From Brachyspira alvinipulli ATCC 51933 (GTDB lineage: Bacteria; Spirochaetota; Brachyspiria; Brachyspirales; Brachyspiraceae): 50,380 bases of DNA. The stretch covers positions 1 to 50,380 of the forward strand of contig NZ_KI912407.1 of NCBI RefSeq assembly GCF_000518245.1. Reading direction: 5' to 3'. Each line of letters opens with the position of its first letter. The stretch's first letter is position 1. The translations under genes were made by a program, and so were the position numbers. The notes under the pieces are model-generated. The model did no database searches. It worked only from the letters and a program-made list of their open reading frames with translations, and was not told the origin of the DNA. Below, one piece after another: positions 2,172-33,581 of the stretch.

Positions 2172-4448
2172 TTAGTACCTCCTACTTGATAATTCGAATA
2201 TACATGCTGTTTCTACTTCTTTCCATAATTCTATATCATTTATTCTTTTTTCTATTAATTTAATAGTTCTTTCTTTTTCGTCTTTAATATCTGGGCTTTT
2301 ATTTGTATATATTTCCAATACTCTTTTATATGTTTCTAAAGATTCATTTTTATTTTCTAACTTTATATATAATTCTGCAATAGAACTCAAATAAAATATA
2401 TTTGATAGATCATTTTTGTCAGTTATTAGGCTTTTATATATTTTTATAAGCTCTTCATAAATTGGAATACTTTTATCTGGTTTTGACACTTTTTGATACA
2501 ATAATGTCAAATATGATAAATCTTTCATATAACAATCTCTATATTTTTCAGTTGTATCTGATATATTTTCATTTTTTAAATCTTCTATTTTTTTAATGCA
2601 TAATTCTATTGATTTATTGTATGTTTTTAATGCATTTTCTTTATCATCAAATTTTAAATGTAAATCTCCTAAATGTTTTAGAAATTGATAATACTCTTTA
2701 TCTTCATCTATATTTTTTTCATAGCACTCTATTATAAAATTATATGTTTCTGCTGATTTTTCTTTATCACCAAATTTTAAATATAAATCCCTTAAATATT
2801 TTAGAAATTGATAGTAATCTTTATCTTCATCTGTATTTTTTTCATAGTACTCTATCATAGAATTATATATTTCTATTGCTTTTTGCCTATCTCCTAGTTT
2901 TACATAAACATCAATTATTTTTTTATAATAAATACTAATATTATCAAAAGAAATTAAATTCCTATTTTTTATAGTTTCTATTGCTTTTTGCTTATCTTCT
3001 AATTTCATATAACTATTCATTAATTCTTCATGCAATTTATCTGCTTTCTCAATACTATATTTTTCAATAAGCTCTATATGTTTATTATAAAATTTAATAG
3101 CCTCATCATATTTTTCTAACTTTTCATAGGCATAAGCAATCTCTTCAAAATAGTATATATGATCACAAATTTCTATGGCCTTATTATAATAATTAATAAC
3201 TTCTTCATAATTTTTTGCATCTTCATAAGTATGAGCAATATCAATATAATAATTTAATTTATTATCTGGATATATTTCTATAAGCATTTTATATATATCT
3301 ATTGCCTTATCATAATTTTTACATTCTCTATATGTTTCAGCAATATTTTTATAATTTTCAATAGATATTTTATTATATAATTCTATAGCTTTATCATATT
3401 CTCCATATCTTTTATATAAGTATGCTAACATTTTACAGTATGCATCTTCTTTATATAAGTCTGATAACTCATTACCAAATGTATATTTTGAATAATGACA
3501 ATATTTTATTATATCAGTGTATGCCTGAACTATATCATTATAAGTTTCACTTCCCTTAAAAATATTATATTTAGATGATATAAGCATTAAAGGAGATGAA
3601 ATATCTTTTTCTATACTTTTTATTAACATTTCTATAGCTTTATCATTTTTACCTAGTTTTTTATATAAATCATACAATGATTTTAATGCATTTAAAGAGT
3701 CATAAAAATTATCATCTAACTCACTTCTTACATTTATATCTAATGCATTTTTATAATTTTTTAAAGCTTCATCATACTGTCCGTTTTTTTCATAGCTTAA
3801 GCCTAAATAATGCCAATAATTAGACTTTTCATAAAAATTATTAAAACAATCTATTGAATCTTCTATAGCCTTTTTAAAATTTTCTATAGCCTCTTGGCTT
3901 TTTCCTAAATATAAATTTATTTGTCCTAATCTATAATAATAATATTCTTTATGGTTATGAATTGTCTCTGTATAATTTATTTCAGCTGCTTTTTTATGAA
4001 ACTCTATAGCTTTATTATAATCCTTTTTTATATTATAATGTATATTTCCTAATAAATACCAATACTCAGAATCTTTATTATTTAATTTAATAGTATTTTC
4101 TAATAATTGAATAATTTTTTCATAATCATTGTAATAGCAATCCCTATAATATGATGCTGCTAAATAGTATAAAACTTTATCTTTTTTATAATCAAGATTC
4201 AAAAGTTTTTTCAATGTTGTTATTACTTTTTTATATTTATCGCTAATATATGAATCGTCATACTGTACCTGTACTAATAAAAATAACAATTCTCTATTAT
4301 TAGAATCTTTTTTTAAATATTCCTCTAATATTTCTTGAGCTTTTTCATGGTAATCTGCATCCTTTTCTTCAAGTTCTTCATTATTTATTCTTTTATTTAT
4401 TATGGCTTCAATTTCTTCTATTGTGTAATTTTTTTTATTATCTTGCAT
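2172..4448 (-). CDS. TPR-repeat protein, 758 aa
   Basis: A 758-residue protein made almost entirely of tetratricopeptide repeats, with helical pairs such as 'YDEALKNYKNALDI', 'YDKAIELYNKI' and 'YEEVINYYNKAIEI'. It is rich in Tyr, Lys, Asn and Glu. There is no signal peptide or transmembrane segment, so a cytosolic scaffold role is likely, but partner and pathway are unknown. An AAGGGG ribosome site precedes the ATG at 4448. It lies immediately upstream of the partial paralogue at 1-2036 on the same strand; the two begin with the same MQDNKKNYTIEEI and share long blocks of the same repeats, indicating tandem duplication. Repeats near residues 490-600 include two nearly identical successive units ('YYQFLKYLRDLYLKFGDKE' and 'YYQFLKHLGDLHLKFDDKE'), a second level of duplication inside the gene. 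Confidence 0.88.
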   Translation of the reverse strand: MQDNKKNYTIEEIEAIINKRINNEELEEKDADYHEKAQEILEEYLKKDSNNRELLFLLVQVQYDDSYISDKYKKVITTLKKLLNLDYKKDKVLYYLAASYYRDCYYNDYEKIIQLLENTIKLNNKDSEYWYLLGNIHYNIKKDYNKAIEFHKKAAEINYTETIHNHKEYYYYRLGQINLYLGKSQEAIENFKKAIEDSIDCFNNFYEKSNYWHYLGLSYEKNGQYDEALKNYKNALDINVRSELDDNFYDSLNALKSLYDLYKKLGKNDKAIEMLIKSIEKDISSPLMLISSKYNIFKGSETYNDIVQAYTDIIKYCHYSKYTFGNELSDLYKEDAYCKMLAYLYKRYGEYDKAIELYNKISIENYKNIAETYRECKNYDKAIDIYKMLIEIYPDNKLNYYIDIAHTYEDAKNYEEVINYYNKAIEICDHIYYFEEIAYAYEKLEKYDEAIKFYNKHIELIEKYSIEKADKLHEELMNSYMKLEDKQKAIETIKNRNLISFDNISIYYKKIIDVYVKLGDRQKAIEIYNSMIEYYEKNTDEDKDYYQFLKYLRDLYLKFGDKEKSAETYNFIIECYEKNIDEDKEYYQFLKHLGDLHLKFDDKENALKTYNKSIELCIKKIEDLKNENISDTTEKYRDCYMKDLSYLTLLYQKVSKPDKSIPIYEELIKIYKSLITDKNDLSNIFYLSSIAELYIKLENKNESLETYKRVLEIYTNKSPDIKDEKERTIKLIEKRINDIELWKEVETACIFELSSRRY

Positions 4449-31635: not shown

Positions 31636-32625
31636 ATGAAATATATATCAATGTTTATTGTAATAGCAATGATATTTCTATATTCATGCAGTAATGCAAA
31701 AGCAAATACCTCTAAGGGAATCAATGATAAAAAAATAAATGAAAATTTCTATTTTGATGTAAATAATGCCTATGATTATATAAAAACACAAACTGATTTA
31801 GGACCTAGAAATTATGGAAGTGAAGCACATAAAAAAGTAAGAAGTTTTTTCAAACAAGAGATATCCAATATGGGATATGAAGTTTTTAGTCATAACTTTG
31901 AAGCTCCATACATAAAAGGAAGAAACGGAGAAAATATTTATGCCTTTTTAAAAGGAAAAACAGATAACTATATAATTATAACAAGCCATTTTGACAGCCG
32001 ATCTGTAGCAGAAAAAGACCCTATAGAAATTAACAGAAATAAACCAATAAGCGGGGCTAATGACGGAGCAAGCAGTAGCGGTGTTCTACTTGAGCTTATG
32101 AAAGCTTTAAAAAATTATAACGACTTGCCTTACAGTGTATGTTTTGTATTATTTGATTTGGAAGATGACGGAAATTTGTTTGATGTAGAAGGAAATTCTT
32201 TAGTAGAAACTGATTGGATACAGGGAAGCATTGCTTTTGTAAATGAAGTTATTTTAAGAGATAAAGTAATAGATAAACAAAAAATAAAATTTGGTATACT
32301 TCTTGATATGGTAGGAAGTAAAGATGCCAAATTTAAATATGAAAGTTTTGCTCATACATATTATTCATCTATATATAATAAAGTATGGCAGTATGCTGAT
32401 AATTTAGGATACGGAAAATATTTTTTTGATGAACATTATGGAACTATAACAGATGATCATACTCCTTTTTTAAACGAAAGAATACCATTTATCGATGTTA
32501 TAGATATGGGATACCCTTTTCATCATACAAGCCAAGATACTATAGACAAATTAGATAAAAAAACTTTGGACGCTGTAGGAAAAACAATAGAATACACAGT
32601 AAAGAACGCCGATAAAGTTTATTAA
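31636..32625 (+). CDS. M28-family zinc peptidase / glutaminyl cyclase-like lipoprotein
   Basis: 329 residues. The signal peptide ends in 'IFLYSCSN', a lipobox with Cys18. The catalytic domain has the M28 metal and catalytic pattern: 'IITSHFDSRS' (His, Asp), 'GANDGASSSGVLLELM' (bridging Asp), 'CFVLFDLEDDGN' (Glu/Asp), 'LDMVGSKDAKF', and 'DDHTPFLNERIPFIDVID' leading to 'YPFHHTSQDT' (His). The last segment is shared with secreted glutaminyl cyclases, so aminopeptidase and cyclase are both possible. Likely periplasmic or surface lipoprotein. GGAAC precedes ATG 31636. The last 35 bp of the gene are duplicated 110 bp downstream. Confidence 0.85.
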   Translation: MKYISMFIVIAMIFLYSCSNAKANTSKGINDKKINENFYFDVNNAYDYIKTQTDLGPRNYGSEAHKKVRSFFKQEISNMGYEVFSHNFEAPYIKGRNGENIYAFLKGKTDNYIIITSHFDSRSVAEKDPIEINRNKPISGANDGASSSGVLLELMKALKNYNDLPYSVCFVLFDLEDDGNLFDVEGNSLVETDWIQGSIAFVNEVILRDKVIDKQKIKFGILLDMVGSKDAKFKYESFAHTYYSSIYNKVWQYADNLGYGKYFFDEHYGTITDDHTPFLNERIPFIDVIDMGYPFHHTSQDTIDKLDKKTLDAVGKTIEYTVKNADKVY

Positions 32626-32735
32626 TTTTCAGTCATAAACGAGCAGCTGATAACTTTAGTTGTCAGCTACTATAAAGCGAGTTTATGACTAGCAATAATA
32701 AATACACAGTAAAAAACGCCGATAAAGTTTATTAA
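32591..32735 (+). repeat. 35-bp direct repeat flanking a palindrome
   Basis: The 3' end of the peptidase gene (32591-32625) is repeated at 32701-32735 with one mismatch (G32604/A32714), offset exactly 110 bp. Between the copies lies a palindrome: AGTCATAAAC (32631-32640) pairs with GTTTATGACT (32681-32690), enclosing a second stem (32645-32654 with 32659-32668). There is no T-run after it, so it is not a standard terminator. Confidence 0.85.
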
Positions 32736-32870: not shown

Positions 32871-33581
32871 ATGTTTGGCGGATATTTTGAATATTATTTT
32901 GGATATATATGGATACTAATTCCGGGTATACTTCTTGGTTTCTGGGCACAGATGAAAGTAAAATCTACTTATGCTAAATACAGCAGAATGGAAAATAAAA
33001 GAGGCATTACAGGAGCACAAACTGCAAAATACATATTAGAAGGATACGGTATTAATATTCCTGTAGAAAGAATAAGCGGTACATTAACAGATCACTATGA
33101 CCCTTCTTCAAGAGTTTTGAGACTTTCTGAAGGTGTTTATGACGGAACAGATGTTGCTGCTTTGGGTGTTGCCGCACATGAAGTAGGACATGCTATACAG
33201 CATGACAGAGGATATGCTCCGCTTTCTATCAGAAATGGTTTTTATCCTTTATGTGCTATAGGCGATCAGTTCGGACCTTATTTAGTATTGATAGGCATTA
33301 TGATAGGAGGTATGGGAGGAATTTCATATTATGTAATGATGGCAGGTATTATACTATTTGCTTTTGCTGTATTTTTCTCTCTTGTCACTTTGCCTGTAGA
33401 ATTTGATGCTTCTAACAGAGCAATAAAGATATTAGACAAAGGCGGTTTTTTAGATCAAGAAGAGCTTTATGGTGCTAAAAAAGTTTTATCTGCTGCCGCT
33501 TTAACTTATGTTGCTGCTGCTGTGACTGCTATACTTACATTATTAAGACTTTTAATGTTAGCACAAAGAAGAAGAGATTAA
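32871..33581 (+). CDS. YugP-type zinc-dependent membrane protease
   Basis: 236 residues, the usual length of the YugP (Zn_peptidase_2) family. The N-terminal helix 'YIWILIPGILLGFWAQMKV' is followed by 'RGITGAQTAKYIL' and 'DHYDPSSRVLRLSEGVY'. The metalloprotease motif is 'AAHEVGHAIQH' with H103, E104 and H107. Three further helices follow (around 125-145, 150-175 and 205-228), with 'LPVEFDASNRAIKIL' carrying the third-ligand candidate. It is an inner-membrane protease of unknown substrate. AGGAGG lies 8 bases before ATG 32871. It is a single gene with a strong terminator. Confidence 0.9.
   Translation: MFGGYFEYYFGYIWILIPGILLGFWAQMKVKSTYAKYSRMENKRGITGAQTAKYILEGYGINIPVERISGTLTDHYDPSSRVLRLSEGVYDGTDVAALGVAAHEVGHAIQHDRGYAPLSIRNGFYPLCAIGDQFGPYLVLIGIMIGGMGGISYYVMMAGIILFAFAVFFSLVTLPVEFDASNRAIKILDKGGFLDQEELYGAKKVLSAAALTYVAAAVTAILTLLRLLMLAQRRRD

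Follow-up and report, generated by a model that had tools for sequence, protein, structure and literature searches.

The end of an M28 family peptidase gene is present twice in the window (by which we mean the whole 50,380-bp stretch of DNA that was analysed), and the two copies enclose a long hairpin that we call E. The copy belonging to the intact gene is referred to as X and the one behind the hairpin as X′; the features of the locus are as follows.

31636..32625, + strand: M28 family peptidase gene with the duplicated end, 329 aa (open reading frame; Pfam PF04389, E 3.1e-35)
32623-32625, + strand: TAA stop codon of the M28 peptidase
32591..32625, + strand: X, the gene-end copy belonging to the intact gene, 35 nt with the stop codon (direct repeat D1)
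32626..32630, + strand: T-rich left flank TTTTC, from the stop codon to the hairpin (sequence)
32631..32690, + strand: E hairpin (sequence, fold, and conservation and covariation in 60 copies)
32631-32640 / 32681-32690, + strand: outer arms of E
32641-32642 / 32679-32680, + strand: tandem GA of E
32643-32644 with 32677-32678, + strand: GC pairs of E
32645-32668, + strand: inner hairpin of E
32669-32676, + strand: 8-nt bulge of E
32691..32701, + strand: E tail AGCAATAATAA (alignment; sequences of other hairpin families), its last A being also the first base of X′ (overlap at 32701)
32701..32735, + strand: X′, the second, untranslated gene-end copy, 34/35 identical (direct repeat D1)
32871..33581, + strand: next gene, a putative neutral zinc metallopeptidase (open reading frame; Pfam PF04298), flanking context outside the element

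The two gene-end copies (32591-32625 and 32701-32735) are 35 nt long, include the stop codon and agree at 34 of 35 positions with a spacing of 110, exactly as a preliminary description of this DNA had claimed. The 60-nt palindrome with outer and inner stems that it placed between them, AGTCATAAAC...GTTTATGACT, was likewise confirmed at 32631-32690 and folds better than shuffled sequence: the 141-nt peptidase-end region reached -31.6 kcal/mol as RNA (z -4.84, none of 200 shuffles being as good) and a z of -3.33 when folded as DNA. Scanning the window for 35-mers that recur no more than 600 bp apart with at most two mismatches returned two sites only, the peptidase end and a site at about 2695 inside a coding repeat; the gene-end repeat is not a product of chance. 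The coding repeat (2690-2860, a direct repeat with 123-bp spacing within a 758-aa minus-strand frame at 2172-4448) is an internal protein repeat unrelated to E. When the 35 open frames in the window that reach 150 codons were compared, the peptidase alone had a downstream gene-end copy clearly above the null, scoring 34.0 where the next frame scored 17.5 and mismatched pairs gave a 99th percentile of 17.0 and a maximum of 21.5.

The palindrome at the peptidase belongs to a hairpin element that is dispersed in Brachyspira and specific to this genus. BLAST with the 75-bp interval between the gene-end copies hit 12 places in the source genome and was positive in 19 of 26 genus genomes, and a covariance model built on 60 copies found 18 matches in the source genome and matches in 20 of the 26; the genome search that had been proposed for the palindrome thus revealed it to be dispersed. 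Across 149 genomes of the phylum, the model matched genus members only, plus one marginal match (E 0.0093), and a gapped DNA pattern for E occurred in 39 stretches of an 84,980-species collection (genome_contigs), all of them in Brachyspira records. High copy numbers are confined to a single crown clade; the genomes outside it have 0-1. No Rfam family matched over its gathering score, the only sub-threshold match being Hsp90_CRE (25.1 bits vs 50, E 0.055), no description of E was found among the listed titles and opening lines of abstracts, which came largely from searches on Brachyspira, and the available parts of Brachyspira genome papers do not mention such repeats.

In order, E consists of a 10-bp outer stem, a tandem GA/GA, two GC pairs, an 11-bp inner hairpin, an 8-nt 3′ bulge and the tail, with a total length of about 71-78 nt. 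This structure is real and its outer stem covaries: across 60 aligned copies the tandem GA/GA is exact in 49, 96.3% of pair cells are paired, double-change cells number 55 against 16.1 in shuffles (0 of 500 shuffles reached 55), and one outer-stem pair is found in all four Watson-Crick forms (GC 25, UA 12, AU 10, CG 9; n=60). Stems read on the E strand (+) contain G-U and A-C cells at 69:10, or 26:10 without pair 35-54, a count inflated by shared ancestry; as far as sequence can tell, this excess leans towards a transcribed form of E, and E is probably carried in transcripts. A function as a general intrinsic terminator was rejected, as a clear T-run behind the inner hairpin was seen by eye only in the enolase version. 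Strict orientation relative to genes was rejected as well, with both neighbour orientations occurring at 57 loci (left neighbour forward at 31, reverse at 15 and unclear at 11; right neighbour forward at 30, reverse at 15 and unclear at 12). At L057, L078, L079, L092, L097, and L107, E ends in AATAGGAG or a similar sequence immediately 5′ of a start codon, and its tail therefore merges with the ribosome-binding site.

Other hairpin families occur in the same loci. By eye, those at L010, L163, L215, L234, and L235 are built from the same parts in the same order, with an identical or similar tail; at L163, L215, L234, L235, and L236, sister families are mixed into E arrays, as happens behind enolase, where the tails of the other hairpin families, too, are followed by gene-end copies. 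At L015, L262, and L084, hairpins are nested within or adjoin E, and one family appears inserted into another.

Gene-end copying behind E is recurrent and not peculiar to the peptidase. With E masked, the 230 bp upstream were aligned with the 230 bp downstream, mismatched pairs serving as the null, and a flanking direct repeat above the 99th percentile was detected in 38 of 170 unique E contexts where 1.7 were expected, leaving 132 with no detectable flanking repeat (the rows behind this count and the tail and frame counts below, 170, 167 and 54, include orthologous loci and arrays and are not independent). Most of these repeats begin immediately at the tail. Flanking duplications, for which the preliminary description had suggested a genome search, are thus present at other copies. 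A copy of the upstream sequence begins 0-3 nt from the tail at 54 of 167 tails, compared with 18 of 740 at AATAATAA and 20 of 600 at random positions, controls that were drawn from the same loci and include some E or array copies; the right-hand junction has a constant position, the E tail. A long frame enters only the left copy in 28 of the 54 cases, only the right in 6, both in 2 and neither in 18. Copies with gene end and stop codon, the intact gene lying on the left, were found for the M28 peptidase, rsgA, enolase, a MoxR-like ATPase, argC (our reading of a semialdehyde-dehydrogenase-like gene from its Pfam family), a nucleosidase (named from Pfam family PNP_UDP_1) and others, and the loci distinguished also include a PDDEXK_2 gene and an unnamed gene ending KINIRVGFDN; at L091/L098 the start of a gene is copied, antisense. 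Repeat lengths are variable, about 16-130 bp. The rsgA locus of G006 consists of four units of 156 bp, and further gene-end plus hairpin arrays lie at L060, L090, and L121.

The peptidase gene is present in 26 of 26 genus genomes, and the sequence behind it takes several forms. In G020, the sister of the source genome (G000) in a three-gene tree, the locus reads gene end, E, gene end, E, gene end, with two E and three gene ends. G008, G023, and G024 have a full E, a shorter gene-end copy and a terminal half hairpin, with two full E in G008; G006 and G014 have E and a short gene-end copy; degenerate hairpins occur in G021, with a gene-end copy, and in G017, without one; and G022 and G025 have a half hairpin only. 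No hairpin was seen at this locus in G003, G004, G005, and G018, which diverge too far after the peptidase stop for a clean empty site, or in the remaining genus genomes, where the absence in G001, G011, G016, and G019 rests on BLAST and covariance-model matches. The preliminary description would have given up its reading for a palindrome confined to this site and a duplication unchanged in distant relatives; what the relatives hold is a near-unchanged duplication only in the sister species G020, a degenerate form in G021, and a different arrangement or none in most others.

Two histories had been offered for the locus, a hairpin element that duplicated its target or a tandem duplication of gene end plus hairpin with one hairpin lost. 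We consider it likely that E is a dispersed, non-autonomous element that inserts behind a gene, and that the left flank is thereby duplicated directly behind its tail. E would enter T-rich sequence just 3′ of the gene, insertion would leave a left-flank copy (about 16-130 bp; here 35 bp with the stop codon) directly after the tail, and the outcome would be the order X-E-X′ and an undamaged gene; subsequent exchange among X copies may have led to arrays (G020) or to unit loss (G022/G025). The dispersal of E and the recurrence of E with a copy of the preceding gene end at other genes support the first history well, and it is favoured over tandem duplication and loss because what surrounds the downstream copy at rsgA is the native context seen in empty relatives. 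There, X′ and its downstream sequence in G024 match the gene end and downstream sequence of the empty sites at 178/186 positions in G025, 176/186 in G021 and 161/185 in G022; the comparison with G013, which has no E matches and belongs to a clade almost free of E, gave 133/190, the first 14 nt past the stop being identical. Enolase resembles rsgA in this respect, with native downstream context behind X′ in G009 vs G007. The proposed check of empty sites thus yielded none that is clean at the peptidase, but at rsgA it placed the extra copy in its native context with no second hairpin. E is present at rsgA in distant relatives too and is old there, and some of the empty relatives may therefore represent secondary loss by X/X′ recombination.

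In the second history, a single E stood behind the gene, slippage or unequal exchange doubled the unit of gene end and E, and decay or deletion then removed the last hairpin. Tandem units do exist (the G020 peptidase, the four units at rsgA of G006, L060, L090, and L121), in G008, G023, and G024 and at the source genome's own rsgA a half or degenerate hairpin lies past the final gene-end copy, and at the peptidase the old half hairpins of these three genomes fit tandem duplication and count against insertion. We nonetheless find this history unlikely: it is not needed at rsgA, G024 rsgA and G009 eno have native sequence right behind X′ with no hairpin remnant, and the last hairpin would have to disappear cleanly every time.

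As for how insertion with a left-flank copy might proceed, we give about even chances to E being copied in during replication or repair by a template switch to an E elsewhere, where a return upstream at an A-run matching the A-rich tail would close the copying-in. At all eight loci picked by hand the first two bases of the copied stretch are AA (background 0.154), and at seven of them a G precedes it (background 0.261 among non-A), both tested after seeing the data; among species variants, the G008 peptidase and the nucleosidase at L217 do not fit an A-run start. Most first-event junctions show no microhomology on the left side of the tail end, and simple slippage via tail microhomology was rejected as having no support beyond the A-run. 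The main alternative, a dedicated enzyme making a widely staggered cut in the target, seems possible but clearly less probable, and we know of no transposase family that fits the variable repeat length. Searches in the 26 genus genomes covered Y1_Tnp, RVT_1, the integron integrase and PDDEXK_2, and these enzymes do not explain the movement of E. In retroposition, E would be transcribed into a structured RNA, and its A-rich 3′ tail would serve as the primer for copying at a nick in the target, with a fixed 3′ end, target duplications of variable length and A-run junctions as the result. Such a route would suit the right end fixed at the tail, the AA start (8/8) and preceding G (7/8) at the picked loci and the + strand excess of G-U over A-C (69:10 cells; 26:10 without one pair); we think it improbable, however, as RVT_1 (PF00078) is found in just 7 of 26 genomes, was not found in the E-rich G000, G003, G004, G005, G008, G014, and G024, and no class of 5′-truncated E copies has been demonstrated. 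Movement of REP/REPIN-type elements by an IS200/IS605-like (RAYT) Y1 transposase is very improbable and close to refuted as a present-day system: E does form short intergenic imperfect hairpins in many copies, but Y1_Tnp (PF01797) matched 0 of 26 genus genomes vs 5 of 14 control genomes. Even less credible is an attC-like folded integron site with gene plus hairpin acting as a cassette, which the hairpins directly after stop codons and the tandem gene-end plus hairpin units might suggest, whereas TIGR02249 was over its curated cut-off in 0 of 26 genomes (sub-threshold matches also occurred in 14 of 14 controls) and the outer stems of other hairpin families are without the AAC/GTT ends of attC sites. 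PDDEXK_2, with 0-40 matches per genus genome, is not convincing as the mover of E, as G001 has 25 but no E match and G017 has one and six E; across genomes the two counts correlate with a Spearman coefficient of 0.59, ancestry ignored. A PDDEXK_2 (putative transposase family nuclease) gene precedes E in L005, and by eye a similar gene lies behind E in L062.

Mobile hairpins for which no enzyme is known occur in mitochondria and bacteria, and how they move is mostly guesswork; with both filled and empty sites, a fixed right junction and directional gene-end copies, these 26 genomes open the mechanism to testing. They also show how an essential gene such as enolase can tolerate an insertion at its end: the left copy retains the reading frame and the stop codon. 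More speculatively, and against our expectation, E and its sister families could form a single class of mobile hairpins recognised by structure, with undescribed machinery that always appends the upstream copy behind the tail, in transposon-poor spirochaetes; if this were true, insertion into a gene end would keep the gene intact.

Known bacterial palindromic repeat families include REP, RUP, ERIC, SPRITE and the Rickettsia palindromic elements (in part after PMC10969869). Like these repeats and MITEs, E is short, non-coding, multicopy, hairpin-forming and intergenic, and without its own enzyme; it differs in the long, variable left-flank copy on the 3′ side only, in its several families with a common tail and architecture, and in a genus where no Y1 transposase was found, the Y1 (HUH) enzyme of REP/RAYT systems being matched in 0 of 26 genomes (PF01797). 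REP hairpins adjoin a GTAG-type foot, and none was seen by eye in the consensus of E alignment A1. E shares with MITEs the terminal inverted repeats, non-coding nature and multiple copies, but its repeats vary from about 16 to more than 100 nt instead of forming a target duplication of fixed length. LINE/SINE-type retroposons have a fixed A-rich 3′ end and a variable target duplication; E has a fixed 3′ end and a variable duplication too, although reverse transcriptase is missing from most E-rich genomes, the source genome included (RVT_1 7/26). Integron attC sites are structure-conserved hairpins behind genes, as E is, but no integron integrase scored over the cut-off here (TIGR02249, 0/26). 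Similarly, mitochondrial double-hairpin elements and GC clusters are mobile hairpins in intergenic DNA with no known enzyme. GC clusters have AG or ACT repeats on their flanks (PMC4478555) and the Allomyces elements are reported, in the available part of PMC2800124, to lack flanking duplications; going by these accounts, E is set apart by flank copies of 16-130 bp that hold gene ends. Overall, E is a genuine dispersed hairpin, specific to Brachyspira, that is accompanied by unusual, directional copies of gene ends.
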